Below, in pieces: positions 959-28,060 of a stretch of 42,658 bases of DNA (its first letter is position 1; each line of letters starts with the position of its first letter). The translations under genes were made by a program, and so were the position numbers. Source of the stretch: Crocosphaera sp. (GTDB lineage: Bacteria; Cyanobacteriota; Cyanobacteriia; Cyanobacteriales; Microcystaceae); NCBI RefSeq assembly GCF_030064895.1, contig NZ_JASJEB010000044.1, forward strand, positions 1 through 42,658, written 5' to 3'. The notes under the pieces were generated by a model. It saw nothing but the letters and a program-made list of their open reading frames with translations. It was not told the DNA's origin and made no database searches.

Positions 959-1996
959 ATGAAACTGTCTGGTGCAGAGTTAAAAAAGTTAGTTAACGCC
1001 ATTGTTAGTGCTTATCCCACTAAATCGGATTTAGCAATGATGGTTCAATTTGAATTAGAAGAAAATCTGGAGGCGATCGCAGGAGGAAACAACCTAAAAC
1101 AATTGGTATTTGATCTAGTAACAACGTGGGCAATACCTAGAGGAAAAATCTACCGTTTAATCTTAGCCTCTTACGAAACGAATCCTGAAAATCCAGAACT
1201 AAAAGACTTTTATGAATCAATTGTTTTAAAGCGGTTTAATCTGGAATCTTCTGTCAAAACCCATGATTTCGGTCCTAATATTAATTGGCAAGGGGAAACA
1301 GATGACATTCAACTTCAAAGTTGGCTGAAACCAGAATTGGACTATTGGGATGTCGGTTTTCTCAAACGGGCTATTGAACAATCAGCTTCAGTTTGTCGTC
1401 TGGAAATGCCGACTCGTCAGATTATAGGAACGGGAGTTTTAATTACCCCGAATAAGTTATTAACGAATTATCATGTTTTACGACCCAGTGAGGAAGACAG
1501 TCTCGAAACCAATGCTTTGAATACGGTTTTGAAGTTTGGTTGTTTTACCTCAGATATGGGGCAAGAAACAGAAGGGAAGTCTTTTAAATTAGATAAAGAA
1601 ACTCCCATCTTATGTTTTAGTAAAACTGAAAACCTGGATTATGTTTTATTACAAATAGAACCATTAATTAGCCAAGACAAGAAGATAAAACCTGCTCGTT
1701 GGAGTCCCCAAAAACTTCCAATGGAAAAAATGGGTATTAATGTCTTGCAACATCCAGAAGGGGATTCAATGAAACTGTCTATTAGTCAAGATGGTGTCAC
1801 AGGTGTTTATCAACAAAATGGCTTAGTTCAATATGTTAATAAAACGTCTTTGGGGTCTAGTGGTTCTCCTTGTTTTGATGAAAATTGGTTTTTAGTCGCA
1901 TTGCATCATGCTCAAAGAGCGAAAACTTTTGGCACCATTAGAGAAGGAATTTTATTCTCTTCTATTTATCAAGAAATTCAGGATTTTTTAACTTAA
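959..1996 (+). CDS. EAD1 domain fused to a trypsin-like serine protease
   Basis: A 345-residue protein. Residues 1-90 form an effector-associated domain of the EAD1 type (MKLSGAELKKLVNAIVSAYP start, then FELEENLEAIAGGNN and NPELKDFYES), closely similar to the start of the VMAP protein encoded at 2465. Residues 140-340 are a trypsin-like protease: His172 in LLTNYHVL, Asp227 in ENLDYVLL and Ser301 in GSSGSP. In NTP-dependent conflict systems, EAD domains bring an effector to its signalling partner by like-with-like contact, and the protease is thought to act when the complex is activated. There is no signal peptide, so it should be cytoplasmic. GGAGG stands just before the ATG. The next gene starts 13 nt downstream. 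Assignment is strong; the protease target is unknown. Confidence 0.85.
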   Translation: MKLSGAELKKLVNAIVSAYPTKSDLAMMVQFELEENLEAIAGGNNLKQLVFDLVTTWAIPRGKIYRLILASYETNPENPELKDFYESIVLKRFNLESSVKTHDFGPNINWQGETDDIQLQSWLKPELDYWDVGFLKRAIEQSASVCRLEMPTRQIIGTGVLITPNKLLTNYHVLRPSEEDSLETNALNTVLKFGCFTSDMGQETEGKSFKLDKETPILCFSKTENLDYVLLQIEPLISQDKKIKPARWSPQKLPMEKMGINVLQHPEGDSMKLSISQDGVTGVYQQNGLVQYVNKTSLGSSGSPCFDENWFLVALHHAQRAKTFGTIREGILFSSIYQEIQDFLT

Positions 1997-2009: not shown

Positions 2010-2438
2010 ATGGGACGGAGAATTATTACCAGCCAACTAGAAGCAAAAACAGAAGGAGCCAAGCTTGATGGTTATTTTGATAAGTTACTTAAGTATATTC
2101 CTACCGAAATTGTTGGCGGTTGGATTGCTATTACAGGACTAATCAAAAGTGCCAGTAATATTCCCACAAATACAATTTTATGGATTTTGTTAGCTATCTT
2201 TACTGGGCTGACGGCTCTTTATATTCTGAAGCAGACAGAGGAAGCAAACAAACCAGCAGCTATTAAACAAACCACTATTTCTAGCATAGCTTTTATTGTG
2301 TGGGTATTTGCTATAGGAGAACCTTTTGATTCTTTGAGTTTTTATAATCCAATTTATGGATCAATTCTTTTGATTTTGTATAACTTAACTATTCCTTTAA
2401 TTAATCCGATTGAAGTTATGCAAAACAAACGAGGTTGA
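2010..2438 (+). CDS. Four-helix membrane protein of the conflict operon
   Basis: A 142-residue protein with a polar N-terminal segment (residues 1-30) ending in KYIPTEIVGGW, then four hydrophobic segments at about 33-47, 55-75, 86-106 and 113-133. The preceding AAGGAG is a good ribosome binding site. The gene sits between the trypsin and VMAP genes with short gaps, so it is part of the same transcription unit. The YIPTEIV motif before the first helix recurs, to my knowledge, in small membrane proteins of cyanobacterial conflict operons, but I do not recognise a named family. A membrane anchor or membrane-damaging effector would fit the context; this is inference. Confidence 0.6.
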   Translation: MGRRIITSQLEAKTEGAKLDGYFDKLLKYIPTEIVGGWIAITGLIKSASNIPTNTILWILLAIFTGLTALYILKQTEEANKPAAIKQTTISSIAFIVWVFAIGEPFDSLSFYNPIYGSILLILYNLTIPLINPIEVMQNKRG

Positions 2439-2464
2439 TAGTTTATTTCTGTGATGTCTTATTT

Positions 2465-4000
2465 ATGAAATTATCTAGAAGTGATCAAAAAGAATTATGT
2501 AACGCCATCCGAAGTGCTTATCCTACAAAAGAAGCTTTGGAGCAATTTACATACTTTGAATTAGAAGAAAGTTTAGACAAAATTGCTGGTGGTAATAATA
2601 TAACAGCAATTATTTTCAATTTAATAACTCAATGGGCAATTTCTCAAGGCAAATTAGAGGAGCTTATCGAAAAAGCTTATCATGATAATGAGGATAACCC
2701 AGAATTAAAAGATTTTTATAATAAAAAAATAAAGCCACCCCCTAGTATTTACAACGAGTTAGGAGGAGACGAGTTATCTTCTGAACGTTCTCAAATTATT
2801 TCAAAATGGAATGAATTATATGTAATTCTCAATAAAGTTAATGATAATCAATTAATTACTAAAATTTGTCAAGAAACTCTGAAAAATAGTCAAAATGACT
2901 TCTTGGGGACTTGCCCCGAATTATCTAACACTATAGATTTAAACAGCTTAAAAAAAATACTCTTAACTAAATTTCCTAAAAGAAATGATGATGTACCGAC
3001 AATTATCGAATTTGCTGAAAGATTAAGCCGTTGTCAAATTGAGAAACCATTATCTAGTCAATTAGAGCAATGGATTCAGTCAATAGCCCAAGACTTTGAT
3101 CTTGCTTTACCTACTTATGCTGATGAATCTGTCCGAGAGAATAATAATAATATATATATCTACTTTTTATTAATAACAGTTATCCCTAAAGGGAAAAATA
3201 AATTTGATCTAGAATCGGATTTATTGTCATACAATGCCTTAACAGATAGTTATCAATCCATTCCCAAATTTCTTGATTGTGAAAATAGAAACTTAATGCA
3301 GTGTGACTTTACAGAGATAAAAGATAAAGTCGGGGTACTAGTTGAAGTTTGTCAAGACTATCTTCAAATTCCTTATCGTCTTAATCTTGAATTATTTTTA
3401 ACCTATCCCTACTTAGGATACGCCTTTGAATTTGATGAAATTGTTATTGATCAACAAAGAAATTCTCAGAGTTCTTTAGGAAAAGAATATCCTTTATTCG
3501 TAAGTTCGTATGATCGCTTTTCCAATAAAAAACATTATAATCAATTTCTGCTCAGATGGCGTAGTAATGTTCAAAATAAGTTAAAGCCTAATTTAGCTAA
3601 ATTTATTGAATCTCTCAAAGAATTGGAAAGCTATAATCATCAAAATTTGGATGAATTAGCTAATCAGTGGGAAGTTCAGGAAATTATTGGGTTAAAAATC
3701 ATGGGATGCTGGTATGATGAAGCTGATGTACAACAAGACTTATTTTATTATATTGTTAAAAGTGGCATTCCCTTAGTTTTATGGCTTAGGTCTAATGACT
3801 TAACCGATCCTAGAAAACAATTAAAAGATTTGTTAACACAACCTTTAAATAATTGGAATGATTTATTTGAACAAGTGTGGAAATGTCGTAAACAAGCTTA
3901 CAAAAAGCCCGAAAAAATCGGTTATCATCTGGGAATTTTAGCGGATGATCCTCAGAGAATTCCCTCTCATTTTAAGCCTTTAATTGAAACGGGTAAATAA
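2465..4000 (+). CDS. EAD1-containing VMAP protein (vWA-MoxR associated protein)
   Basis: The start at 2465 (MKLSRSDQKEL) is preferred over the open TTG at 2435 because it aligns with the start of the EAD1 domain in the protease gene. Residues 1-85 are EAD1 (FELEESLDKIAGGNN, NPELKDFYNKK). A helical middle region follows at about 105-210 (LNSLKKILLTKFPKR, IIEFAERLSRC), and a C-terminal mixed alpha/beta region at 230-511 contains LFLTYPYLGYAFEFDEIVID and WLRSNDL. This order matches the vWA-MoxR associated proteins, where the middle and C-terminal VMAP modules link the EAD to the MoxR/vWA signalling pair. The matching EAD1 in the protease suggests that these two proteins dock. The MoxR gene follows after 14 nt. 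The family call rests on architecture and neighbours. Confidence 0.75.
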   Translation: MKLSRSDQKELCNAIRSAYPTKEALEQFTYFELEESLDKIAGGNNITAIIFNLITQWAISQGKLEELIEKAYHDNEDNPELKDFYNKKIKPPPSIYNELGGDELSSERSQIISKWNELYVILNKVNDNQLITKICQETLKNSQNDFLGTCPELSNTIDLNSLKKILLTKFPKRNDDVPTIIEFAERLSRCQIEKPLSSQLEQWIQSIAQDFDLALPTYADESVRENNNNIYIYFLLITVIPKGKNKFDLESDLLSYNALTDSYQSIPKFLDCENRNLMQCDFTEIKDKVGVLVEVCQDYLQIPYRLNLELFLTYPYLGYAFEFDEIVIDQQRNSQSSLGKEYPLFVSSYDRFSNKKHYNQFLLRWRSNVQNKLKPNLAKFIESLKELESYNHQNLDELANQWEVQEIIGLKIMGCWYDEADVQQDLFYYIVKSGIPLVLWLRSNDLTDPRKQLKDLLTQPLNNWNDLFEQVWKCRKQAYKKPEKIGYHLGILADDPQRIPSHFKPLIETGK

Positions 4001-4014
4001 CCAAGGAGACACTT

Positions 4015-5118
4015 ATGACTGAAGATTGGCATTTATTTCGAGGCAATGGTCAACAACGAGAAAAAGCTACTGAGATTCTCAAAAATCTAGAACCTCCCCC
4101 TTGGCGGAAATTTGGTCAATGGTCAGACTTAGAAAATTCCCAAGAAATTAGAGACCGTTGGCCAGAAATTCGACAACTTGCCAAAAAAAGGGAAAGAGAA
4201 CAATTAAGAGGAAAAAATTTTCGACTTTATACTGAAGCATCAGAAAATCAGGAACTTTCTTCTGATATTCGAGATGTGATTAATGCTGTCAATGCAGCTA
4301 TTTATTTAAGAAGACCTTTGTTGGTAACCGGAAATCCTGGTTCGGGGAAGAGTACCCTAGCTTATGCGATCGCTCATGAATTAGACTTAGGAACAGTATT
4401 ATCTTGGTCAATTACAGCACGGACAACCATTCAAGAGGGTTTATATCGTTATGATGCCATTGGGCGACTACAGGATGCTCAACAAGGGGAAGAGCTTCAT
4501 ATTGGAAATTATATTAAATTAGGAGCATTGGGGACAGCTTTTTTAGCGTCAGATTTACCCAGAGTCTTATTAATTGATGAAATAGATAAAAGTGATATTA
4601 ATCTGCCCAACGATTTGTTAAATTTACTCGAAGAAGGGCAATTTCCCATTGATGAATTAGTGAGACGTTCTCCGAAAAATAACTCAGAAAAAAATGAAAT
4701 AGAGCCTTTCACTATTAACACACAAGATGAAGGAATAGAGGCAGTAATTGAAGATGGTTGGGTTCGTTGTCAGGCTTTTCCTATTATTGTCATGACCAGT
4801 AATGGAGAACGAGATTTTCCGCCAGCTTTTAAGCGAAGATGTTTACGAATTACTATGCCAGATCCTAAAAAAGAAGGATTAGAAGCCATTGTTAAGGCTC
4901 ATTTTGGTGACGAAAAATTTAACGAATACGCTGACATTATTAATTCCCTTATTAGTGAATTTCTTGATGAAGGAAAAGCGAATAAAATTGCTAGAAATCG
5001 GGCAACGGATCAACTACTTAATACCATTTATGTCTTAACTTGTTCCCTTAGTCCCAAAGCAAAAGATGAGGAATCAGTAAAAAATTTATTATTAAAGCGT
5101 TTATCGGATAATGATTGA
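4015..5118 (+). CDS. MoxR-type AAA+ ATPase
   Basis: A 367-residue ATPase. Walker A is GNPGSGKST (about residues 105-113), Walker B LLIDEIDKSD (about 184-193), and a VMTSNGERDFPPAFKRRC segment (about 260-277) carries sensor 1 and the arginine finger region typical of MoxR/RavA-like AAA+ proteins. MoxR ATPases work with vWA proteins as chaperones or switches; here the vWA gene begins inside the end of this gene (8-nt overlap, 5111-5118), which implies translational coupling and a joint complex. A strong AAGGAG precedes the ATG. An insertion at about 220-245 (acidic, Asn/Glu-rich) separates Walker B from sensor 1. This is a core NTPase of the ternary conflict system. Confidence 0.88.
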   Translation: MTEDWHLFRGNGQQREKATEILKNLEPPPWRKFGQWSDLENSQEIRDRWPEIRQLAKKREREQLRGKNFRLYTEASENQELSSDIRDVINAVNAAIYLRRPLLVTGNPGSGKSTLAYAIAHELDLGTVLSWSITARTTIQEGLYRYDAIGRLQDAQQGEELHIGNYIKLGALGTAFLASDLPRVLLIDEIDKSDINLPNDLLNLLEEGQFPIDELVRRSPKNNSEKNEIEPFTINTQDEGIEAVIEDGWVRCQAFPIIVMTSNGERDFPPAFKRRCLRITMPDPKKEGLEAIVKAHFGDEKFNEYADIINSLISEFLDEGKANKIARNRATDQLLNTIYVLTCSLSPKAKDEESVKNLLLKRLSDND

Positions 5119-8035
5119 AGAAAGTCAACTCAAACAATTAATAAATATCTTAGGAGAAGAGTTGGATTTAACTGGAGAAGACATCGCTGATGTTCTATGG
5201 TTGGCTGTACAAAGACAGAAGTATAATCGTAATTTAGTGACGGTTGAAACCAAGGAATCCGAGTCAACCTCTTGGTGGTCAAAATTCCAAGATTTAATCA
5301 CTCAGCTTCAAGATTTAATTAATCAAAAAGACACAGAAAAAGCACAAGAAAAAACAGCAAAAACAACTATTTTTCAAAACAAATATTCGGTTCCCATCTA
5401 TGGCGAAACCTCTACTTCAACTACTTCTACGACCAATAGTAGTCAGGTTTTACCCATTCGAGTCCCTGATGCTCCTTCCTTACGAGAACCCTTAGAAATC
5501 GCTCAAAGTTTTCGTCCTTTGATGCGTAAAATGGCAACGGGAAGAAAGGTTATTTTAGATGAAATTGCTACCGCCAAAAATATTGCTGAAAATAAGATTT
5601 ATCTTCCTGTTTTAAAGTCAGAAACAGAACCTTGGTTAGATTTGGCTTTAGTGATAGACGAAAGCCCATCTATGTCGATTTGGGGACATACCATTAAAGA
5701 TTTAAAGCGATTAGTTGAACATTATGGGATCTTTCGAGATGTCAGAACCTGGGGATTAGTCAGCGATGAAGCTGGTTTGGTTAAGCTGTTACCCCGTATG
5801 GGAACTAAGCGCAAAGTACAACGTTTTGCGAGTCCTCGTGAACTTCGAGATCCCAATGGTCGACGGTTAGTATTAATTGTCAGTGATTGTGTTTCCCGTT
5901 TCTGGCATGATGGTGCTATGATTGCGCCTTTGGAAATTTGGTCACAACAACAACCTTTAGCTATTCTGCAAATGTTACCTGACTGGTTATGGTTAAGAAC
6001 TGGTTTAGGCAATGGTGCCTCAGTGTTGTTGAAAAGTTTAGCTCCAGGGGGTCCCAATCAACAGTTACAGATCGAGGAGTTATTATTAAGAAAAGATTTT
6101 CCTCTTTCAGAAGGCATTAAAGTTCCAGTTCTAAACTTAAACCCGGATTTGTCAAAGGTTTGGAGTGAAATGGTAGCGGGGAAAAGTGAGGCCATCTCAT
6201 CAGGTTTTGTCTTTCCCCCACAGATGGAGTTTGAGGAAGACAGTTTACCGGAAATCGAAGTGGGCCAACTCAATGCAGAGGGAAGAATTACTCGTTTTCG
6301 TCAAACTGCTTCTCCTATTGCCCGTAAATTAGCAGGATTATTGGCTGCTGCCCCTGTTATTAGTTTACCGGTGGTGCGTTTAATTCAAGATACTCTTTTA
6401 CCCCAATCAAATCAAATTCATGTAGCCGAAGTGTTTTTAGGGGGCTTATTAAAACCGCTAGTCCCCATTGAAGCCGATACGAACCCTGATGCGGTACAGT
6501 ATGGGTTTATGGATGAAGGAATTCGTCAAATTTTCTTACAAGATGCTCCTGTTAGCGATTCGGCTGAAGTCTTTGATGCTGTTTCTCAGTATGTAGCTTA
6601 CCGCTTAAATAGGTCTTTACAGCAATTTGTCGCTTTATTAAAAGCACCTCAAGACTCTTCTGAAGAGGAGGGTATAAAAGCGTTTGCAGAGGTGGCTATT
6701 GAGATTTTAAAAGGTTTAGGGGGAGATTATGCTAGGTTCGCTTTGGAATTAGAAGAACAGAGAACTCCATCATCACAATCTGTTGATTTTATCTCCCTTT
6801 CCCCACAACAATTACAACTATTAAATCTTACTTCAGAAGATTTACGCGTTTTTGATGTAAATGTAGCTACTTTCTCAGAAAGTCCAGAAACAGAAAATCT
6901 AGAGCTACTCAAATTTGAGACAATTTTTGTTAATAGTCGTGGTGAAACGGTTAAAACACAGCCATGTGAGGCTTACTACTATAAAGAATCATTGGACTTC
7001 AACATAGACTTTAACAACGTTGATGAAACCAGAGAAAAATCAGAAATTGATGGTGATAATAACCAAGATGAACAAACAAACCCAACAGTAGAACCTTTAA
7101 CTATGATTTCTATCCCAGAAGGGGAGTTTATTATGGGTTCTCATTCTTCAGAAGAAGGTCGATATGACAGAGAAAGTCCACAACATCGGGTGAAAATTTC
7201 ATCTTTCTATATGAGTCAAACCCCCATTACCCAAGCTCAATGGCGGGCGATCGCTTCTCTGGATCAAGTTGAAAAAAACTTAGAACTATCACCAGTTAAT
7301 GATGGTGATGATGATCATCCTGTTACATACATCAGTTGGCACGATGCCATAGAATTCTGCGCTCGGTTATCTAACCATACTGGAAAACAATACCGTTTAC
7401 CATCAGAAGCAGAATGGGAATATGCCTGTCGAGGGTTTCAACGTCCTCCAGAGTCTTTGCCTGAAATAGATGCGGGAGATCCTTTCGCCGATCTTTTGAA
7501 CACAGAACCAGAAACTCTCAACATAGATGCTGGAGATCCTTTCGCCGATCTTTTTGAAGAAGACACAGAACCAGCAAATCCCATCAATACAAAAGTTTAT
7601 CCTCCCTTTCACTTTGGAGACACTATGACTGATAAGTTAGCTAATTATAATGCGTCTTATACTTATGCCGATGAACCAGAAGGGCAATACCGAGGCAAGA
7701 CGACCCCTGTAAGGTCTTTTAAACCGAACGCCTTTGGTTTGTACGATATGCACGGAAATGTCTATGAATGGTGTTTAGACCCCTGGCATTATGATTATAA
7801 GCGCGCACCTAATGATGGCAGTGTCTGGGATGAAGAAAATCAGCAAGAAGATTTCTATCAGGATATCGTAAAGAATATTAAGCAACTATTGACAGATAAA
7901 CGAAATCATGTAGGTCGCGGCGGTTCGTACCACTATAATCCGCGCTATTGCCGGTCTGCGTATCGCAACTACTACGCCCACGCGCGCGATTACGATGGTT
8001 TTCGTGTTGTGTGTGTTCTCCCCAGGACTTCTTAG
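5111..8035 (+). CDS. vWA protein with C-terminal FGE/C-type-lectin domain, DGR target 1
   Basis: A 974-residue protein. Residues 1-80 are helical. A vWA-like domain starts near 165, with the metal site DESPS (Asp183, Ser185, Ser187) after a hydrophobic strand, and a long helical region runs to about 560. Residues 660-974 form a formylglycine-generating-enzyme-like (FGE-sulfatase) domain with GEFIMGS, PITQAQW, RLPSEAEWEYACR, MHGNVYEW and the final RGGSYHYNPRYCRSAYR. In DGR systems this C-type-lectin fold is the usual variable protein, and the last 37 codons are VR1. True FGE oxidase activity is unlikely; a diversified ligand-binding sensor is more plausible. The FGE part has a 40-residue Asp/Glu-rich insertion with a repeated IDAGDPFADL, placed where the paralogue at 10157 has only AGTRT. 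The protein would couple recognition to MoxR/VMAP signalling (inference). Confidence 0.88.
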   Translation: MIEESQLKQLINILGEELDLTGEDIADVLWLAVQRQKYNRNLVTVETKESESTSWWSKFQDLITQLQDLINQKDTEKAQEKTAKTTIFQNKYSVPIYGETSTSTTSTTNSSQVLPIRVPDAPSLREPLEIAQSFRPLMRKMATGRKVILDEIATAKNIAENKIYLPVLKSETEPWLDLALVIDESPSMSIWGHTIKDLKRLVEHYGIFRDVRTWGLVSDEAGLVKLLPRMGTKRKVQRFASPRELRDPNGRRLVLIVSDCVSRFWHDGAMIAPLEIWSQQQPLAILQMLPDWLWLRTGLGNGASVLLKSLAPGGPNQQLQIEELLLRKDFPLSEGIKVPVLNLNPDLSKVWSEMVAGKSEAISSGFVFPPQMEFEEDSLPEIEVGQLNAEGRITRFRQTASPIARKLAGLLAAAPVISLPVVRLIQDTLLPQSNQIHVAEVFLGGLLKPLVPIEADTNPDAVQYGFMDEGIRQIFLQDAPVSDSAEVFDAVSQYVAYRLNRSLQQFVALLKAPQDSSEEEGIKAFAEVAIEILKGLGGDYARFALELEEQRTPSSQSVDFISLSPQQLQLLNLTSEDLRVFDVNVATFSESPETENLELLKFETIFVNSRGETVKTQPCEAYYYKESLDFNIDFNNVDETREKSEIDGDNNQDEQTNPTVEPLTMISIPEGEFIMGSHSSEEGRYDRESPQHRVKISSFYMSQTPITQAQWRAIASLDQVEKNLELSPVNDGDDDHPVTYISWHDAIEFCARLSNHTGKQYRLPSEAEWEYACRGFQRPPESLPEIDAGDPFADLLNTEPETLNIDAGDPFADLFEEDTEPANPINTKVYPPFHFGDTMTDKLANYNASYTYADEPEGQYRGKTTPVRSFKPNAFGLYDMHGNVYEWCLDPWHYDYKRAPNDGSVWDEENQQEDFYQDIVKNIKQLLTDKRNHVGRGGSYHYNPRYCRSAYRNYYAHARDYDGFRVVCVLPRTS
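7466..7554 (+). repeat. In-frame duplication inside the FGE domain
   Basis: A 32-nt segment (7466-7497) recurs with one mismatch at 7523-7554, an offset of 57 nt or 19 codons, giving IDAGDPFADL twice. It lies in an acidic insertion absent from the paralogous FGE gene. Confidence 0.85.
7913..8025 (+). repeat. DGR variable repeat 1 (VR1)
   Basis: 113 nt in frame at the end of the vWA-FGE gene. From CGC (7916) on, it matches the TR except for nine substitutions, all at TR adenines (to T, C or G), and one extra codon in the AAC run. The codon before CGC is also explained by A changes (AAA to GGT). The last 27 nt before the final AG contain no A in the TR and are identical, which would serve as the anchor at the 3' end. 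Two codons and the stop follow the repeat. Confidence 0.95.
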
Positions 8036-8041
8036 CACTCT

Positions 8042-8065
8042 GCCCTATTGCCCTATTGCCCTTTG
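8042..8065. repeat. Short tandem heptamer repeat (TGCCCTA type)
   Basis: TGCCCTAT-TGCCCTAT-TGCCCTTT follows the vWA-FGE stop codon. It is one of the short tandem repeats common between genes in cyanobacteria. It stands between VR1 and the Avd gene and has no clear role. Confidence 0.6.
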
Positions 8066-8184
8066 CTCTCCGCCCAAAAATCGGCTACTTTACAAAAGTT
8101 AATATAATAGAAAAGAAAAGTAATAAACAGTTAAATTAATTGAGAATAAATGACCGTTTTTTCTGTCATAATCATAAATCTGTC

Positions 8185-8204
8185 TCCTGAAAATGTCTTC
8201 AGGA
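8185..8204 (+). promoter_or_regulatory. Hairpin just upstream of the Avd gene
   Basis: TCCTGAA (8185-8191) and TTCAGGA (8198-8204) form a perfect 7-bp stem with a 6-nt loop, 20 nt before the Avd ATG. No long T run follows on the + strand, so a processing or translation-control hairpin is more likely than a terminator. Confidence 0.35.
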
Positions 8205-8224
8205 AAATAAAGGAAAAAACATCA

Positions 8225-8599
8225 ATGAATGAATTACCAGTTATTCAGAAAACTTATGATTTTGTCAAGTGGTTTGTCCCGATTTTAAATAAGTTACCCC
8301 GTGACCATAAGTTTATTTTAGGGGATAGAATAATCAAAGAAGTTTACGAGTTATTGGAAGGGTTACTGAGAGCCAGATATGCTAAAGAGAAATTAACCCA
8401 GTTACAAGCCTTAAATAGCGAGTTAGATGTTCTTAGATATCAGACACGGTTACTGTATGATTTTGAATTAATTTCCCTTAAACGCTATCAATATATTAAC
8501 CAGCAATTACAAAGCATCGGTGTCGAATTAGGAGGATGGATAAAACAACAGAAACAGTCCAACAGAAATCATTATCAAGAGACAGCTAATTTTAACTAA
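8225..8599 (+). CDS. avd: DGR accessory protein Avd (four-helix bundle)
   Basis: The start at 8225 (MNELPVIQKTYDFVKW) is chosen because AGGA stands 10 nt upstream and because Avd proteins begin this way; a longer frame from 8150 adds an unlikely hydrophobic leader. The 124-residue product has the Avd signature: an initial IQKTYDFVKWFVPILNKLPRDHKF helix, then RIIKEVYELLEGLLRARYAKEK, a third helix with LDVLRYQTRLLYDF, and KRYQYINQQLQSIGVELGGWIKQ. Avd forms a positively charged pentameric barrel that binds the reverse transcriptase and the TR RNA and is needed for mutagenic cDNA synthesis and retrohoming. The RT gene begins 9 nt after its stop. Confidence 0.92.
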   Translation: MNELPVIQKTYDFVKWFVPILNKLPRDHKFILGDRIIKEVYELLEGLLRARYAKEKLTQLQALNSELDVLRYQTRLLYDFELISLKRYQYINQQLQSIGVELGGWIKQQKQSNRNHYQETANFN

Positions 8600-8608
8600 A
8601 CTATAAGA

Positions 8609-9679
8609 ATGAAGAGATATGGTAATCTTTATCCGAAAATTATTGAGTTTGAAAACTTATTTAAAGCAGCAAAGCAAGCACAATTAGGTAAACGATTTAA
8701 GGATAGTGTTTTAGAATTTAATGATAACTTAGAAGGAAATTTACTAAAATTAGAAAAAGAACTGATAACTCACACCTATCAACCAGGAAAGTATCATACT
8801 TTTAGAATTTATGACCCGAAACCACGATTAATTTCTGCTGCTCCCTACCGAGATAGAGTGGTTCATCATGCACTCTGTAATGTGATTGTCCCCTTAATTG
8901 AAAAAAGTTTCATTCCTGATTCCTATGCTAACAGAGAAGGTTATGGAAGTCATCGAGCTTTGAAACGGTTTATTGGCTTTGCCCGAAGTAGTAAATATAT
9001 TTTACAATGTGACATAAAAAAGTATTTTCCCAGTATCGACCATCAAATACTTAAGCAACAGATTCGCCATTATCTAAAATGTCCAGAAACTTTATGGTTG
9101 ATTGATGCTATCATTGATAATAGTAATGAACAAGAAGCTGTAAATGAGATATTTCCAGGGGATGATTTATTAACCTTAATAGAACGGAGAAAAGGTTTAC
9201 CTATAGGTAATTTAACCAGTCAATTATTCTGTAATCTTTACTTGAATAAATTTGATCATTTTGTTAAAGAAGAGATTAAAGCTAAGAAGTATGTCAGATA
9301 TGTGGATGACTTTGCTCTTTGTTCTGATGACAAGGATTTTTTAGTAACAGCTAAGCAAGAAATTGAAGCATATTTAACCACCATTAGATTAAGACTCCAT
9401 CCTATAAAAAGTCAGTTGTTCGAGACAAAATATGGAGCCAATTTTTTAGGATTTCGGGTATTACCTCATCAAGTTAGAGTTAGAAATGATAATTTAAGGC
9501 GGTCTCGTCACAGATTAAGACAGCTACAATACGATTATCGTTATGGAGAAATCTCCTTGAAAGATGTGATACAAAGATTAAGCAGTTGGGAAGCACATCT
9601 CAAACATGGAGATACTTATCACCTCAGACAAGATATTTTTGACCATTGGACATTTCAGCGACAACACTGGGACTTCTGA
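8609..9679 (+). CDS. DGR reverse transcriptase
   Basis: A 356-residue reverse transcriptase. Catalytic Asp135 lies in [13 protein letters not shown]. The DGR-typical motif LPIGNLTSQ is at 197-205, where group II intron and retroviral enzymes usually have a Q-G motif; this change is linked to low fidelity at adenines. YVDD is at 231-234 and a LGFRVLP thumb-start motif follows near 276. There is no maturase or endonuclease domain, as expected for DGRs. It copies the TR RNA and misincorporates opposite A. It follows avd after 9 nt and lies 205 nt before the TR. Its stop codon shares bases with a 13-bp inverted repeat. Confidence 0.96.
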
Positions 9680-9768
9680 TAGCGGTTTTCAATTGGATAG
9701 ATTATTCTCGATAACCCTGCGGTAACTTTGAACATATTACTTTGAGCTACTGATATGAAAACCGCTAT
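9679..9768. repeat. 90-bp element with perfect 13-bp inverted ends
   Basis: ATAGCGGTTTTCA at 9679-9691 and TGAAAACCGCTAT at 9756-9768 are perfect reverse complements, and the left arm begins on the last base of the RT stop codon. A 64-nt AT-rich interior separates them. This may be a small MITE, an RT-end terminator or a structured part of the retroelement RNA. A shorter hairpin (TTTGGTA/TACCAAA, 9775-9793) follows. Confidence 0.7.
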
Positions 9769-9774
9769 GAGTTC

Positions 9775-9793
9775 TTTGGTAATTACTACCAAA
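9775..9793 (+). other. Small hairpin upstream of the TR
   Basis: TTTGGTA (9775-9781) and TACCAAA (9787-9793) form a perfect 7-bp stem with the loop ATTAC, 91 nt before the TR. It may belong to the TR transcript leader; no function can be assigned. Confidence 0.4.
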
Positions 9794-9878
9794 TCTAAAA
9801 TATTTTAAGTTTCCAAAGAAAGTCTAAAATTTCCATAATAAGTAGCGACAACATTTGAAAATAAAGGATGGGACAGGC

Positions 9879-10019
9879 ATGAGAAAACGCGGCGGTTCGT
9901 ACAACAATAATCCGCGCAATTGCCGGTCTGCGTATCGCAACAACAACAACGCGCGCGATAACAATGGTTTTCGTGTTGTGTGTGTTCTCCCCAGCACTCT
10001 TCTATTCCAGAGCTTGTAA
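9879..10019 (+). other. 46-codon open frame spanning the template repeat
   Basis: An ATG at 9879, with AGGA 10 nt upstream (9865-9868), opens a frame that runs through the whole TR in the same phase as VR1 and VR2 and stops at TAA 10017-10019. It would encode an Asn-rich version of the target's C-terminus (SYNNNPRNCRSAYR, then four Asn). It could be a by-product of the TR originating as a copy of target coding sequence. The ribosome-binding-site spacing is good, so translation is possible but unproven. Confidence 0.4.
9885..9994 (+). repeat. DGR template repeat (TR)
   Basis: 110 nt matching VR1 and VR2. It is rich in AAC/AAT codons at exactly the positions that vary in the VRs (AAC-AAT-AAT, AAT, four AAC in a row, AAC-AAT). 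AAY codons are the optimal template because A-mutagenesis can yield many residues and no stop codon. The 3' tract from GGTTTTCG to CCCC has no A and is shared by all three copies, ending at CCAG; the sequences then diverge (C in TR, G in both VRs). TR lies between the RT gene and the second target gene. Confidence 0.96.
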
Positions 10020-10050
10020 ATGGGAATTTACAGGGAGCGTCCTGAAGAGT
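9996..10050 (+). ncRNA. Candidate structured RNA at the 3' side of the TR
   Basis: Directly after the TR, ACTCTTC (9996-10002) pairs with GAAGAGT (10044-10050), enclosing a second perfect hairpin TGTAAAT-GGGA-ATTTACA (10015-10032). In the well-studied phage BPP-1 DGR, a structured RNA segment directly downstream of TR binds the RT-Avd complex and primes cDNA synthesis. Position and nested stems make this region the likely equivalent. The pairing is read by eye; function is inferred by analogy. Confidence 0.5.
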
Positions 10051-10156
10051 CCAGACCTGTTCCTGTGGGGTGAATAACTCCCGAAAATAAATCAGATTGG
10101 AGAGCCTAGTAGGGTAACACCGAAACGTTTTCCAATCTACTCATTTTTAAGAAAAA

Positions 10157-11023
10157 ATGGCTCAACTGAGGGTAAAAAAAGAAGCAAAACGAGTTCAAGG
10201 GTTTGTAGAAGATTTGAATGGTGTTCCCTTGGATATGATACTCATTCCTTCTGGAAGCTTCTTGATGGGTTCGCCATCGGATGAAGAGGACAGTTATGAC
10301 GATGAAAGACCACAGCATCAAGTAACCGTGCCGATGTTTTTTATGGGACGTTACCCCATTACTCAAGCACAATGGGAAGCCGTTGTTGCGATGCAACAGG
10401 TAGAAAAAGAACTTGATTCTAATCCATCTGGATATAAAGGAGATAAGCGGCCTGTTACTAATATTAGTTGGCATGATGCCATAGAATTCTGCGCTCGTTT
10501 ATCTAACCATACTGGAAGACAATATCGTTTACCGAGTGAAGCAGAATGGGAATACGCCTGTCGTGCAGGGACTAGAACCCCCTTTCACTTTGGGGAAACT
10601 ATATCAACCGACTTAGCTAATTATAATGGTTCAAACGATAAATATGGGGCTTATGGGAGAGGCGAAAAAGGGGTGTCTCGAGGTGAAATCACAGATGTCG
10701 ATTACTTCGGTGTGGCTAATGATTTTGGACTAAGTGATATGCACGGAAATGTCTGGGAATGGTGTTTAGACCCCTGGCATGATGATTATAAGCGCGCACC
10801 TAATAATGGGAGTGTCTGGGATGAAGAAAATCAGCAGCAAGATCACTATAACCACATTGTTAATAATATCAAACAACTATTGACAGATGAGCGAAGCCAT
10901 GTAATACGCGGCGGTTCGTTCATCAATGCTCCGCGCTATTGCCGGTCTGCGTATCGCTACCTCTACAACGCGCGCGTTTACTACCTCGGTTTTCGTGTTG
11001 TGTGTGTTCTCCCCAGGAGGTGA
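10157..11023 (+). CDS. FGE-sulfatase/C-type-lectin domain protein, DGR target 2
   Basis: A 288-residue protein made almost entirely of one FGE-like domain: MILIPSGSFLMGS, PITQAQWEA, ISWHDAIEFCARLSNHTG, RLPSEAEWEYACRAGT, MHGNVWEWC and a final RGGSFINAPRYCRSAYR containing VR2. It is a clear paralogue of the end of the vWA-FGE gene; long stretches are nearly identical in DNA (for example 10738-10850 against 7747-7860), which points to a recent duplication or gene conversion. No signal peptide is visible. It lacks the vWA part and the acidic insertion, so it may be a free binding protein, decoy or competitor of the sensor. The start is ATG in an A-rich context with a weak ribosome binding site. 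It may share the TR transcript. Confidence 0.93.
   Translation: MAQLRVKKEAKRVQGFVEDLNGVPLDMILIPSGSFLMGSPSDEEDSYDDERPQHQVTVPMFFMGRYPITQAQWEAVVAMQQVEKELDSNPSGYKGDKRPVTNISWHDAIEFCARLSNHTGRQYRLPSEAEWEYACRAGTRTPFHFGETISTDLANYNGSNDKYGAYGRGEKGVSRGEITDVDYFGVANDFGLSDMHGNVWEWCLDPWHDDYKRAPNNGSVWDEENQQQDHYNHIVNNIKQLLTDERSHVIRGGSFINAPRYCRSAYRYLYNARVYYLGFRVVCVLPRR
10904..11016 (+). repeat. DGR variable repeat 2 (VR2)
   Basis: 113 nt in frame at the end of the second FGE gene. From CGC (10907) on, 11 substitutions against the TR all fall at template A. There is also one extra codon near the GAT-AAC-AAT segment; aligning it leaves one T-to-C difference, the only non-A change in either VR. The A-free 3' tract is identical to the TR through CCAG. 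Two codons follow before the stop. Confidence 0.95.
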
Positions 11024-19815: not shown

Positions 19816-22077
19816 TTAATCATAATTCAAATCAGCAAAGGGTAAGAACAAAGTATCCTCAATTTCTTCTCTCACTTCTCGACTAACATAACACTCACTA
19901 TTTAAACACTTCATTAATAATTGATTAGCGGTTAAATATTGCTTGAGTAAGTCAATTTGCTGCTGGTTAAAGTTCCATTCATGACCAATATTTCGATATT
20001 TAATCATTGCTTCTCTTAGTTCTTTTCTCCAAGCTGCACTATTATTTTTCCACCACTGATTTTTTTTATATTTATCTTCATCACTATCTGGTAATTGTTG
20101 TTGTAATTTTTCTAATATTTCTTTTAGTTTTCCATCTACACAGTTTTGTATAGCATTGGAGAGGGAGCGGTTTAACGAGAAGGAGAGGTCGCGGTAGAGA
20201 TCGAGGTAGAGGGAGAAGGAGAGGTTGTAGTCGCGTTGGAGGTCGCGGTCGCGGTGGAGGTTGTAGTCGCGTTGGAGGTCGCGTTGGAGGTCGCGGTCGA
20301 GGTCGCGGTCGGGGTCGAAGGAGTAGTAAAATTGTCTAATAACTGCAATTTTCTGATCTGCTTCCACTGAATTACTTTTATCTCTTACCCATACTAAATA
20401 TTCTTGTAATCTTGTTTCATTTGCGAGCAATTTATCAATATTATGTTTCATTAACAATAATAAACGATCCGCAGGTTCTAATAGAGTTGCTGTTAATAAA
20501 AAAACTTCTTTCCATCGTTTTTCAAATACATGACCTGCTAAACTAATTAAAGCATTTTCTAACTCATTGGGATTAGAAATATTAGCAATTTTTCGAGAGG
20601 TAAAATACTCTTGAAATGTAAGGTGAGAAAAAGAATAAATTCCTCTTGCTCTTTCTACTAATAAACCGTGTTGTGCTTCAATAGATTTGAGAACTCCTTG
20701 ACTATCAATATCTAACTTTGTCTGTTCTTTTGGTGCAGTGGGTAAATTACAAATATATTCCCCGATATAACTTTCAATGGTTCTTTGTTTAAAGAAATAT
20801 TCCTTTTTATCAAAAGTTTTAAAAGCAATTTGACTCAGTAAACCTTCTTTTCGTTTAGGAGTCAATTCTTTATACACTTGTTGACGATAAATATAGCGTT
20901 TATCATCCCATTTTCTTAATAAAGTATTAGTTGCTCTAGCGTATAAATCTGCTCTATCTGAGGGAAAATTACCTGAGTCTTCAAACTCTAAACATAATAG
21001 AGTTAACAGCAAAGGATTATTCGCTAATTCTTTGATAGTAGAATTATTTTTTAACTGTTCTAGAAAATGTTTTGGATATTCAGGTAACTGTTTAATTTTA
21101 AACCAACTGTTCACAAAATTTTTAATTTGCTCATCATCAAAATCTGCAACTTCGACTTCTGTAAACTGAGTAAAAGTATATTCTTTCGCTGCAATACGAC
21201 AAGTTACTGCAAATTGATTCTTATGATAAAGGTTATAAAAATTTTCAATATTTCTGATTACTCTTTCATTATCTTCTTCCTTCACTTCATCTAAACCATC
21301 TAGTAATATTAATCCTCTTCCTGCTGTTAATATTCTCTCTAATTTTTCAGAAGCATTAGTTATCTTACAATCTTTCAACCATTTAATCATATAACTGGAT
21401 AAATCTGGACTATTTTCGGCTTCTGCATATTTTTTGAGGGGAATAAAAATGGGTATTTTCGTTTCAACAAATTCTCCTCGAGTACATTGTATAGCTAAAT
21501 ATTTAAGAAACATCGTTTTTCCCACACCAGGTTTGCCTAAAATCATCAATTTATCATATTGATTAACTGCTTTTAAACCTAAAACTCTTTTCTGTTTAAT
21601 CTTGTTTAAACCAAAGCGATCAAATTCATCCTTTTCTAAATTACAGTTCTGGAAAAGTTCATCTAAATTAAATCCTCTGCGACCAATAATTTTTTCTAAA
21701 ATATTAACTTGAGTGTAAATATCATTTAACTCAATGGGTCGACTCATATCTAATACTCGCATTGTACCGCATTCTTTTTCAACACTGTTTTTAATAGATG
21801 TTCTAATTTCTTCTACGAGTTCATCTATTCCTTTTTCTTGTAAGTGGATTTTATATGATGTTTGTATTTCAACAATATCTATCCATTCCAGTTTTAAAGC
21901 TTCACAAATATTAATAAATTTCTGCTTATCAATTGCTTTTCCTTTTAAAAAATTACTAACCACAGGACGAGAACAATCTGCTAAATCTGCCAAAATTTGT
22001 TGTGTCCAACCTTTCTTTTTAAATTCTTGTTTAGCTACTTCAAGTCCTTTTTTTGAAGCAATATAAGACCTTTCCAT
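19816..22077 (-). CDS. HTH-NACHT NTPase (bacterial NLR-type defence protein)
   Basis: A 753-residue protein. Residues 22-65 form a helix-turn-helix of the XRE kind (TQQILADLADCSRPVVSNFLKGK). The NACHT module follows: Walker A GKPGVGKT at 181-188, Walker B LILLDGLDEV at 256-265, TCRIAA sensor region near 292-297, and FSHLTFQEYFTSRKIA near 483-498, a winged-helix motif common to NACHT proteins. The C-terminus is helical (NNSAAWRKELREAMIKYR, NQQQIDLLKQYLTANQLLMKC). Residues 588-640 are an Arg-Asp-Leu/Ser-Phe repeat. NACHT proteins of this class protect bacteria from phages by nucleotide-driven activation. It is transcribed alone. No separate effector domain is visible, so the C-terminal part may act as sensor and the HTH end as effector or regulator. 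Confidence 0.88.
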   Translation of the reverse strand: MERSYIASKKGLEVAKQEFKKKGWTQQILADLADCSRPVVSNFLKGKAIDKQKFINICEALKLEWIDIVEIQTSYKIHLQEKGIDELVEEIRTSIKNSVEKECGTMRVLDMSRPIELNDIYTQVNILEKIIGRRGFNLDELFQNCNLEKDEFDRFGLNKIKQKRVLGLKAVNQYDKLMILGKPGVGKTMFLKYLAIQCTRGEFVETKIPIFIPLKKYAEAENSPDLSSYMIKWLKDCKITNASEKLERILTAGRGLILLDGLDEVKEEDNERVIRNIENFYNLYHKNQFAVTCRIAAKEYTFTQFTEVEVADFDDEQIKNFVNSWFKIKQLPEYPKHFLEQLKNNSTIKELANNPLLLTLLCLEFEDSGNFPSDRADLYARATNTLLRKWDDKRYIYRQQVYKELTPKRKEGLLSQIAFKTFDKKEYFFKQRTIESYIGEYICNLPTAPKEQTKLDIDSQGVLKSIEAQHGLLVERARGIYSFSHLTFQEYFTSRKIANISNPNELENALISLAGHVFEKRWKEVFLLTATLLEPADRLLLLMKHNIDKLLANETRLQEYLVWVRDKSNSVEADQKIAVIRQFYYSFDPDRDLDRDLQRDLQRDYNLHRDRDLQRDYNLSFSLYLDLYRDLSFSLNRSLSNAIQNCVDGKLKEILEKLQQQLPDSDEDKYKKNQWWKNNSAAWRKELREAMIKYRNIGHEWNFNQQQIDLLKQYLTANQLLMKCLNSECYVSREVREEIEDTLFLPFADLNYD
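20158..20316 (-). repeat. GC-rich repeat segment within the NACHT gene
   Basis: A 27-nt unit is repeated exactly at 20221 and 20257 (36-nt offset, 12 codons), with further partial copies on both sides. It encodes D-L-Q-R-D-Y-N-L/S-F-S-L phrases. The segment is strongly GC-rich against an AT-rich gene. Confidence 0.85.
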
Positions 22078-26581: not shown

Positions 26582-28060
26582 TTAAAGTTTTTTAACAGTT
26601 TCAGCTATTAAATAATTTATGGGAGATACATTCCCGAAATAACTAAGAAGATAATTTCTCTGACTTTTAGGAAGACACCGAGAACCAACAGCAGAAGCCC
26701 AAGATAACCAGTCTGCTTTACCTTCTTTGAGATGCTCTTCTCTTAAATCAGGCATACCAAAACGATTTTCAGGTATTTCTAAAATCTTACTTTTAGAAAT
26801 TGTTGAAGAATTTTTGTGTTCATAAATTTTGATAAGTAAATCAGAATATTCCACTGTTGTTCTTAGACCATCTTCTACAATTTTTGTTATCCAAAATAAT
26901 TGCTCTTCAGTTACTATTTCAGCTTCATCAAGAAACTCACTAATTATCTCTAATAAATCTGACTTATTATCAATAAAAGGAGAATAATAATAAATTTTTT
27001 TAATTAAATTAGGGAATTTGTAGAGAAAAATTTTAATATTATCAAGTACATCTTTTCCATTTTCTTTCATAAAAGTAAGTATTAAATCTGCGTCTGCTTC
27101 CTCTAGTTCAGAATTATTAAGCAGAGAGTAAAGATACTCTTCTTGTTCATTACTCAAGGTTAAATTATGTGGTTCTTCTTCACTTTCATAGTAGTCTGAG
27201 ATCATTTCTGTTCTCATTCTGAGCAATTGTTTTCTCACTTCTTCTATTTTTTCACTTATTTCTAAGATACCAGGATCACCATATTTTGTTTTTGAGCTAT
27301 TTATATTAAGCCCTTTTTCTCCAGCCATCTGTTGAATTAATAAAAAATCATGATAAATTACCCGATTGTTATTAGTAAAAATATATATATCATCCATAAA
27401 CCTTAATAAAAGCTCACATTTCAATCGTATTGAATTATCAATAAACTTTAAAAATTCAGAACCTATTACTTTACATGGATGTATCCCTTGAGGAAGACAG
27501 TCAATACTTCTTCCTGAATTAATTTGTCTTAAAAAAATACCTAAATATTCTGATTCTTTTGGCTCTTTTGAAATTTGTTCAAACCATTGAACTAAATCGT
27601 GATGATATATACTATTAAAATATGCAGAAATATCAAGTTTCAGACAATATTTATAATCTTGATTAGCTTCAGCTACAGATTTTTTAAATTCGCGATAAGC
27701 TAGGGCAAGAGAAATTGGTTTACCTTGTTCAAATCTATGACCAAAACTTCGTCTATTTCTCTTAAAATCTTTTCTAAAATATTTTCTATTCCGATAGACG
27801 AAATCATAGATAAAAAATTCGGCTACTGGGTTAAGTTTGAACGTCCTTCTTAAGTGCATATCATGTTTCGCACTGTAGCAACGAATTTGTGGAAGAAAAT
27901 TATATTCTTGTGCATCATCATCCTTTAATAACTTTTGATAAATATATTTATACAATTCTTCTCCAGCATTTTTAATTACTATTTCATTGGTTGATAAAGG
28001 GAAAAAACTTTTTTGATAATCACTAGAAAAGTAATCAATAGTATTTTGAATATTAGGCAT
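26582..28060 (-). CDS. Non-DGR reverse transcriptase, likely antiphage (Abi/DRT-like)
   Basis: A 492-residue reverse transcriptase. The catalytic motifs are Asp143 in CLKLDISAYFNSIYHHDL, LPQG at 189-192, and FMDD at 221-224. The N-terminus (residues 55-110, with CYSAKHDMHLRRTFKLNPVAEFFIYDFVYRNRK and RSFGHRFEQGKPI) and the long helical C-terminus (about 290-492) are not those of group II introns, retrons or DGRs. This arrangement fits the 'unknown group'/Abi-type enzymes, several of which are defence-associated RTs that act by untemplated or ncRNA-templated DNA synthesis. The subtype is uncertain. A 49-codon ORF ends 20 nt upstream on the same strand. Confidence 0.85.
   Translation of the reverse strand: MPNIQNTIDYFSSDYQKSFFPLSTNEIVIKNAGEELYKYIYQKLLKDDDAQEYNFLPQIRCYSAKHDMHLRRTFKLNPVAEFFIYDFVYRNRKYFRKDFKRNRRSFGHRFEQGKPISLALAYREFKKSVAEANQDYKYCLKLDISAYFNSIYHHDLVQWFEQISKEPKESEYLGIFLRQINSGRSIDCLPQGIHPCKVIGSEFLKFIDNSIRLKCELLLRFMDDIYIFTNNNRVIYHDFLLIQQMAGEKGLNINSSKTKYGDPGILEISEKIEEVRKQLLRMRTEMISDYYESEEEPHNLTLSNEQEEYLYSLLNNSELEEADADLILTFMKENGKDVLDNIKIFLYKFPNLIKKIYYYSPFIDNKSDLLEIISEFLDEAEIVTEEQLFWITKIVEDGLRTTVEYSDLLIKIYEHKNSSTISKSKILEIPENRFGMPDLREEHLKEGKADWLSWASAVGSRCLPKSQRNYLLSYFGNVSPINYLIAETVKKL

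Follow-up and report, generated by a model that had tools for sequence, protein, structure and literature searches.

The stretch of DNA analysed here (the window) comprises positions 1 to 42,658 of contig NZ_JASJEB010000044.1 from Crocosphaera sp. (NCBI RefSeq assembly GCF_030064895.1; this genome is called G000 below), and its positions 8150–11023 hold a complete diversity-generating retroelement (DGR) composed of avd, a gene for a DGR-type reverse transcriptase (RT), a template repeat (TR) and two variable repeats (VR1 and VR2). Both VRs are found in frame at the 3′ ends of genes encoding FGE/C-type-lectin proteins and end no more than three codons before the stop. With a probability of about 0.93, the locus is read as a complete cyanobacterial DGR that is attached to a ternary conflict system of the VMAP–MoxR–vWA type and acts by the mechanism proposed below. 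Its assignment to the known cyanobacterial class of DGRs is well supported.

The two proteins of the element were examined separately. First, Avd scored 136.5 bits (E 3.6e-40) against NF033474 (DivGenRetAVD), the cut-off of which is 80; its open frame begins at 8150, and the likely start, as judged by eye against the copy on contig C34 of the same genome, is 8225. Second, the RT was aligned to 8ub7, its best relative of solved structure (E 6e-50), which we take to be the Bordetella DGR enzyme, and both the YxDD and the [IL]PIG.LTSQ motifs were aligned. In DGR-type RTs, [IL]PIGxLTSQ stands where group II RTs have the QG motif. An inspection of the letters alone, called here the sequence-only reading, had named Avd and an RT with LPIGNLTSQ, and both are borne out.

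The shared core of the three repeats begins at CGC (9888 in the TR, 7916 in VR1 and 10907 in VR2), and the three bases preceding it differ. The TR core contains 24 A, 30 C, 27 G and 26 T (22% A). In a codon-wise comparison, with a scoring that penalised changes at A less than others, VR1 carried eight substitutions relative to the core, all of them at A, together with an extra codon (hypergeometric p 2e-6); VR2 carried 13 substitutions, 12 at A and the other a T-to-C, again with an extra codon (p 1e-8). A plain blastn control, in which some flanking bases were included, gave the same picture (VR1, eight at A and one at C; VR2, 14 at A, one at G and one at T), and the C change in VR1 is the first base beyond the shared tract. 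The sequence-only reading had described a TR and two in-frame VRs in different FGE-fold proteins, one length-changed codon in each VR and a single T-to-C in VR2; these were found where it had placed them, with the core running from CGC and the codons and the T-to-C recovered codon-wise. When the alignment was tabulated by template base, non-A substitutions stood at 0 of 8 in VR1 and 1 of 13 in VR2. The restriction of VR1 changes to A therefore held, but the proposed count of nine fell to eight, as nine is obtained when the extra codon is set one codon further along. The A bias of VR2 held as well, but the proposed eleven, a count of the changes that precede the length-changed codon, became 12 or 13 at A once that codon was included.

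On the 3′ side, a tract of 29 nt (GGTTTT...CCCCAG) is identical in the TR, VR1, VR2 and a further VR on contig C28 of the same genome, while a VR on contig C155 differs within it. The tract had been called identical and free of A; the identity stands, but there is one A, at 9993. The base that follows is C in the TR and G in VR1 and VR2, and the same is seen in the C28 and C155 VRs and in two VRs on C34 when each is compared with its own TR. A shared tract followed by a fixed C/G difference is a 3′ boundary of the IMH/IMH* type (IMH, initiation of mutagenic homing).

Close to the end of a contig, another genome of the same genus (G004) carries the same TR together with target 2, which allows copying to be followed between species. 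The two TR cores differ at five positions, all of which are mirrored in the VRs: VR1, VR2 and the VRs on C28 and C155 match the window TR, and the G004 VR matches the G004 TR. Eight further sites, all at A, distinguish the G004 VR from the G004 TR, and the part of the target gene that precedes the VR is 75.5% identical in the window and G004. Because the VRs of each genome mirror the differences of its own TR, these sequences indicate that TR-to-VR copying continued after the two lineages separated. The claim that the element has been active on both targets gained support from this comparison at the species level, in which the VRs followed their own TR at 5 of 5 sites. The idea that VR2 is older than the split from G004 was given up on the same result. 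Among other relatives, VRs tracked 8 of 8 non-A TR differences in the pair L009/L010 and 10 of 13 in L009/L011, and L027/L029 had zero such differences; the pairs L018/L012, L015/L012 and L015/L018, in which ungapped registers fit less than half of the columns, were left out. Tracking of TR differences between species thus provides a simple homing test that needs no reads.

An A-biased TR–VR pair was present, in the DNA examined, in 27 of the 37 RT relatives, and 685 of 768 substitutions fell at A over 42 relative pairs, a set chosen at ≥70% substitutions at A. By the titles of their records, 32 of the 37 RT-relative loci are cyanobacterial. These data bear on a competing explanation, namely that the VRs are paralogous gene ends whose differences arose through ordinary mutation and selection, together with conversion between copies, and that the RT has nothing to do with them. 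FGE-type stretches are indeed numerous (20 matches to target 2 in this genome), and VR2 shares a derived codon with the C28 VR. However, changes lying mainly or only on template A were observed directly in four VRs and in a second species, relative to a TR that is situated outside the targets, and together with the like pairs of the RT relatives they make the paralogous origin highly improbable. The features of the element and its upstream neighbours are collected in Table 1.

Table 1. Coordinates of the DGR and the adjoining conflict-system genes in the window.
Feature	Position	Strand	Basis
EAD1 and trypsin-like peptidase, putative effector	959..1996	+	Pfam EAD1 7.6e-21, Trypsin_2 2.4e-18
EAD1-VMAP-M1-VMAP-C protein, ternary conflict system	2435..4000	+	Pfam EAD1 1e-19, VMAP-C 3.3e-18, VMAP-M1 4.1e-9
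MoxR-like AAA ATPase	4015..5118	+	Pfam AAA_5 1.8e-10; MoxR label from context with PMC7159879
Target 1, 974-aa SAV_2336-N-terminal/FGE protein	5111..8035	+	NCBIfam SAV_2336_NTERM 8.4e-134; Pfam FGE-sulfatase 1.2e-45
VR1	7916..8025	+	8/8 substitutions at template A, plus one added codon
avd	8225..8599	+	NCBIfam DivGenRetAVD 3.6e-40; Pfam bAvd 7.3e-22
DGR reverse transcriptase, 356 aa, YVDD and LPIGNLTSQ	8609..9679	+	phmmer to 8ub7 6e-50; RVT_1 1.9e-23
TR core, 107 nt	9888..9994	+	Comparison of repeats
Putative structured spacer RNA 3′ of TR, Rfam RT-14-like	9992..10152	+	Model R1 135.6 bits; RT-14 46.5 bits; covariation
Target 2, 288-aa FGE/C-type-lectin protein	10157..11023	+	Pfam FGE-sulfatase 2.8e-52, model positions 4-254 of 255
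VR2	10907..11016	+	12/13 substitutions at template A, plus one added codon

A DNA search of the genome with the TR returned 11 matches: the TR, VR1 and VR2 themselves, the VRs on C28 and C155, a TR and two VRs on C34, a TR on C177, and two short stretches of 26 and 16 bases. The C28 VR belongs to a 1090-aa NACHT-FGE gene and shows 15 substitutions relative to the TR, 13 of them at A, and a difference of one codon. The C155 VR belongs to a 662-aa kinase-FGE gene, with 16 of 19 changes at A, three elsewhere and a shifted codon; the non-A changes and the shifted codon may mark it as an old target or a diverged one. C34 carries a second complete DGR, the two VRs of which lie in caspase-FGE and FGE targets, and C177 carries a third, in which the RT (L057, 8442–9808, minus strand) is split by an insert into frames of 227 and 91 aa. 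The sequences suggest that the window TR has no fewer than three targets, and probably four. Thus, of the proposed one template with two targets, the single template and both targets were confirmed, but the total was too low, with at least one remote target (C28) and probably C155 in addition. The insert on C177 carries a gene for a four-helix-bundle protein (23S rRNA IVP-like), a family that the window Avd also matches weakly.

By the proposed mechanism, the TR and the structured RNA after it would be transcribed, and this RNA, by analogy with the Bordetella phage system, would act as the spacer RNA that recruits RT–Avd and primes cDNA synthesis. The cDNA, with errors opposite template A, would then replace the VR, with guidance from the 3′ tract that the repeats share (GGTTTTCG...CCCCAG) and that is followed by C (TR) or G (VRs). 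The targets would be the ligand-binding tips of FGE/C-type-lectin domains: in cis, the SAV_2336/vWA-type protein and the stand-alone FGE protein; in trans, the NACHT-FGE protein and probably the kinase-FGE protein. These targets would have a sensing role. The extra codons could arise by slippage in AAC runs during reverse transcription or stem from an earlier, longer TR allele.

Several observations weigh against this reading. First, VR2 and the C28 VR share an extra codon and a T-to-C that are not obtainable by A mutation of the present TR, the C28 VR has one more non-A change (C-to-T), and the C155 VR has the non-A changes and shifted codon described above. Second, the sole RT piece seen in G004, which is located at a contig end, carries an in-frame stop. 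Third, a DNA stem-loop 3′ of the VR was sought in six VRs, and five of them fold no better than shuffled sequences, the C155 VR being the only one that does (z −2.9). Fourth, a scan for promoters found nine against 8.3 expected, no signal above chance, and zero terminators. Finally, an RT at 1e-40 was missing in 10 of the 27 genomes bearing the structured RNA, and the RNA is therefore not tied to the RT.

Some of these points would also be expected if the element had worked in the past and were now frozen: an older, longer TR would account for VR2 and the C28 VR better than the present TR does, the RT piece in G004 has its stop, and the RT on C177 is split in the same genome as the window. The RT and Avd, however, are intact open frames in both the window and C34, the window RT keeps its active-site motif, the VR1 core is without a non-A substitution, and the TR differences from G004 are found in all four VRs. 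A frozen element is less likely than not, and the element of the window may be active at present. The locus is a clean natural example of a single template that serves, both in cis and in trans, targets of three or four architectures, next to a suspected immune system.

The length-changed codons deserve separate consideration. Codon-sized indels within the repeat were found in VR1, VR2 and the C28 VR and in 3 of the 42 relative pairs (L030, L031 and L043), and all six sit in AAC/AAT runs. L031 has an additional one-base gap within the repeat, the other 12 of the 16 gaps in the relative pairs lie at or beyond alignment ends, and the C155 VR shows one codon gap each way, which may be an effect of alignment. 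Slippage in AAC repeats has been proposed in a passage of PMC12875486 (citing Wu et al. 2018). Alternatively, the extra codons may be remnants of an earlier TR allele one codon longer rather than products of slippage. VR2 and the C28 VR end in CTC before GGTTTTCG, where the TR has AAT; the T-to-C of this shared codon would be accounted for by an earlier TR allele in which a hydrophobic codon occupied this position. Such a codon (ATC, ATT, CTG, GTT or GTC) stands there in 18 of 29 distinct relative TRs, including GTC in the C34 TR, and the remaining 11 have AAC, AAT or AGG. For VR1, however, the extra codon lies within an (AAC)4 run, and slippage alone is enough; moreover, the G004 TR is short too, and a long allele would have been lost twice, or gained and lost. 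The chances of the earlier allele thus fall just short of even.

The stretch directly 3′ of the TR is a structured RNA. A good alignment was obtained for 30 stretches located 3′ of TRs, including three of this genome, and 32 of 39 predicted pairs covary with changes on both sides, with 95.6% of cells paired. None of 500 shuffles reached as high a value, and slid versions of the structure pair in 33–45%, a comparison that favours the predicted structure since it was derived from the same alignment. The Rfam family RT-14 (RF02921) covers the stretch directly after the TR in the window (9995–10138), on C34, in G004 and at L029. In two scans its gathering threshold was reached at 2 of 24 loci (0 of 11 and 2 of 13), namely G004 and L029, whereas the window (46.5 bits against a cut-off of 48.1) and C34 fell just below it and C177 and L085 gave no match at E 0.05. 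No paper naming RT-14 was found among the matches listed in a word search, and a link between RT-14 and DGRs may be in print. A model of the RNA built from the alignment (R1) matched 44 of 55 sources, of which 30 are its own training rows, the window (135.6 bits) among them; 43 matches had E below 1e-12, and L035 was weak (12.8 bits, E 0.45). R1 was without a match in the other 11 sources, two of which (L055 and L056) are remote-target loci. Over 292 genomes of the phylum, R1 matched 45 places in 27 genomes. The RNA was present in 17 of 18 same-class genomes with the RT (E 1e-40 or better) and absent in 18 more distant genomes whose RTs are 32–41% identical. The covarying RNA thus provides a handle for finding TRs, including those without an RT, and a concrete hypothesis for the role of RT-14.

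TRs without an RT were seen among the 45 R1 matches: 23 lie within 3 kb of an RT or a piece of one, 20 do not, and two stand outside this count. Ten of the 20 include a TR–VR pair, seven have the RNA close behind an FGE gene without a second copy, and three have neither. In the ten pairs, a target gene with its VR is followed by the TR a few hundred bases on. In five of these (L165, L176, L179, L181 and L092), non-A changes occur within the repeat and may reflect decay, while the other five (L168, L172, L175, L178 and L182) have them only at alignment ends. L168, L172 and L182 are caspase-like/FGE cassettes (the caspase label was assigned by eye) whose TRs are identical over 129 nt; the stretch of TR plus RNA is 98–99% identical in the two pairs measured, and the target gene regions are 82–97% identical. 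Their VRs differ from the TR at 14, 8 and 12 sites, all at A except two 3′-boundary bases. Two of these three genomes (G148 and G267) gave no match to the window RT at 1e-15, and none of their six RVT_1 matches has the DGR motif, four being of group II type and two neither; the third, G279 (L182), has a DGR RT elsewhere in the genome.

These observations led to a tentative proposal, regarded as possible rather than probable, that the structured RNA is diagnostic of this cyanobacterial DGR clade and defines non-autonomous cassettes (target, TR and RNA, lacking both RT and avd), which would be diversified in trans, the RT being either elsewhere or one that comes and goes in the population. For the RT-less cassettes, either trans use or recent loss may apply. 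A passage in Vallota-Eastman et al. (PMC7517822) describes a gene of Nostoc PCC 7120 with remnant TR–VR homology and no RT nearby, and suggests that the machinery is removed once a variant is chosen. At L164, L167, L169, L170, L171, L174 and L180, the RNA starts about 80 bases or less after the end of the FGE match, and neither a second repeat copy nor an RT was found there, an arrangement that recombination between VR and TR would leave.

The DGR adjoins an operon encoding an EAD1-trypsin protein, an EAD1-VMAP protein and a MoxR-like ATPase. VMAP-C and AAA_5 were detected side by side, and the third component gives the SAV_2336 N-terminal family. No vWA Pfam match was obtained in target 1 at 0.001, and its role as the vWA component is assigned by context. 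The layout of the operon resembles that of VMAP ternary conflict systems, a suspected defence system. The link between DGRs and these systems has already been published (Dore et al. 2024, PMC10907252; Kaur et al. 2020, PMC7159879), and DGR targets are proposed as antigen sensors in a passage of PMC10907252. As described in sections of these two papers, the published elements share with this one a MoxR ATPase, VMAP, a vWA-FGE target and adapter or effector genes beside the DGR, as well as trans targets that match the TR at non-A sites and an association with NACHT proteins; here, in contrast, the targets in trans are a NACHT-FGE gene and a kinase-FGE gene, each on another contig.

As in the cyanobacterial DGRs of Vallota-Eastman et al. 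2020 (PMC7517822), as far as the relevant sections of the paper go, the VRs lie at the 3′ ends of CLec/FGE targets, multidomain targets include kinase or caspase-like domains, some targets are remote, and one genome holds several DGRs. That paper, however, stresses colonial and filamentous hosts, and the parts of it examined describe no spacer RNA. Compared to the DGR of Bordetella phage BPP-1, as presented in parts of PMC12875486, the RT, Avd, TR, VR and A-mutagenesis are alike, and a structured spacer RNA lies 3′ of the TR in both, a resemblance in presence and position; in the window, however, the TR is 3′ of the RT gene rather than 5′. In BPP-1, according to the same source, a DNA stem-loop 3′ of the VR aids homing and is important but not strictly required, whereas most VRs here are without a clear 3′ stem-loop. 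What makes the present locus valuable is how many and how varied its targets are, along with the clean between-species homing test and the RNA.

Several minor observations were made on the element, its relatives and the rest of the window. The FGE domain match in target 2 is full-length with VR2 at its end; a structure prediction for this protein from nine sequences was too poor (predicted local distance difference test score 49.6) and was left unused. Between the RT and the TR, a long inverted repeat with arms ATAGCGGTTTTCA was noted by eye at 9678–9770; it was rejected as a high-copy repeat, with three matches in the genome, two of only 26 bases. In viral contigs, 11 stretches matched the search pattern, one of which encodes a relative (38%). 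At L035, a Spirochaetales metagenome-assembled genome, the RT is 50% identical to the cyanobacterial one and a TR–VR pair is present. Stretches resembling the TR and RNA also occur on plasmids, with 7 of 72,556 plasmid records matching at 60–80% identity; the cases include NC_010480.1 of Picosynechococcus sp. PCC 7002 and L166 (G130:C3), the latter with no RT or FGE match nearby. Elsewhere in the window, a second RT, unrelated to the DGR, is the antiviral Drt5 (26582–28060, minus strand; NCBIfam 664.6 bits, cut-off 550), and a NACHT-NCH2 protein (19816–22077, minus strand) and a KAP NTPase-GUN4 fusion (39855–42302, minus strand) are further conflict-type genes.

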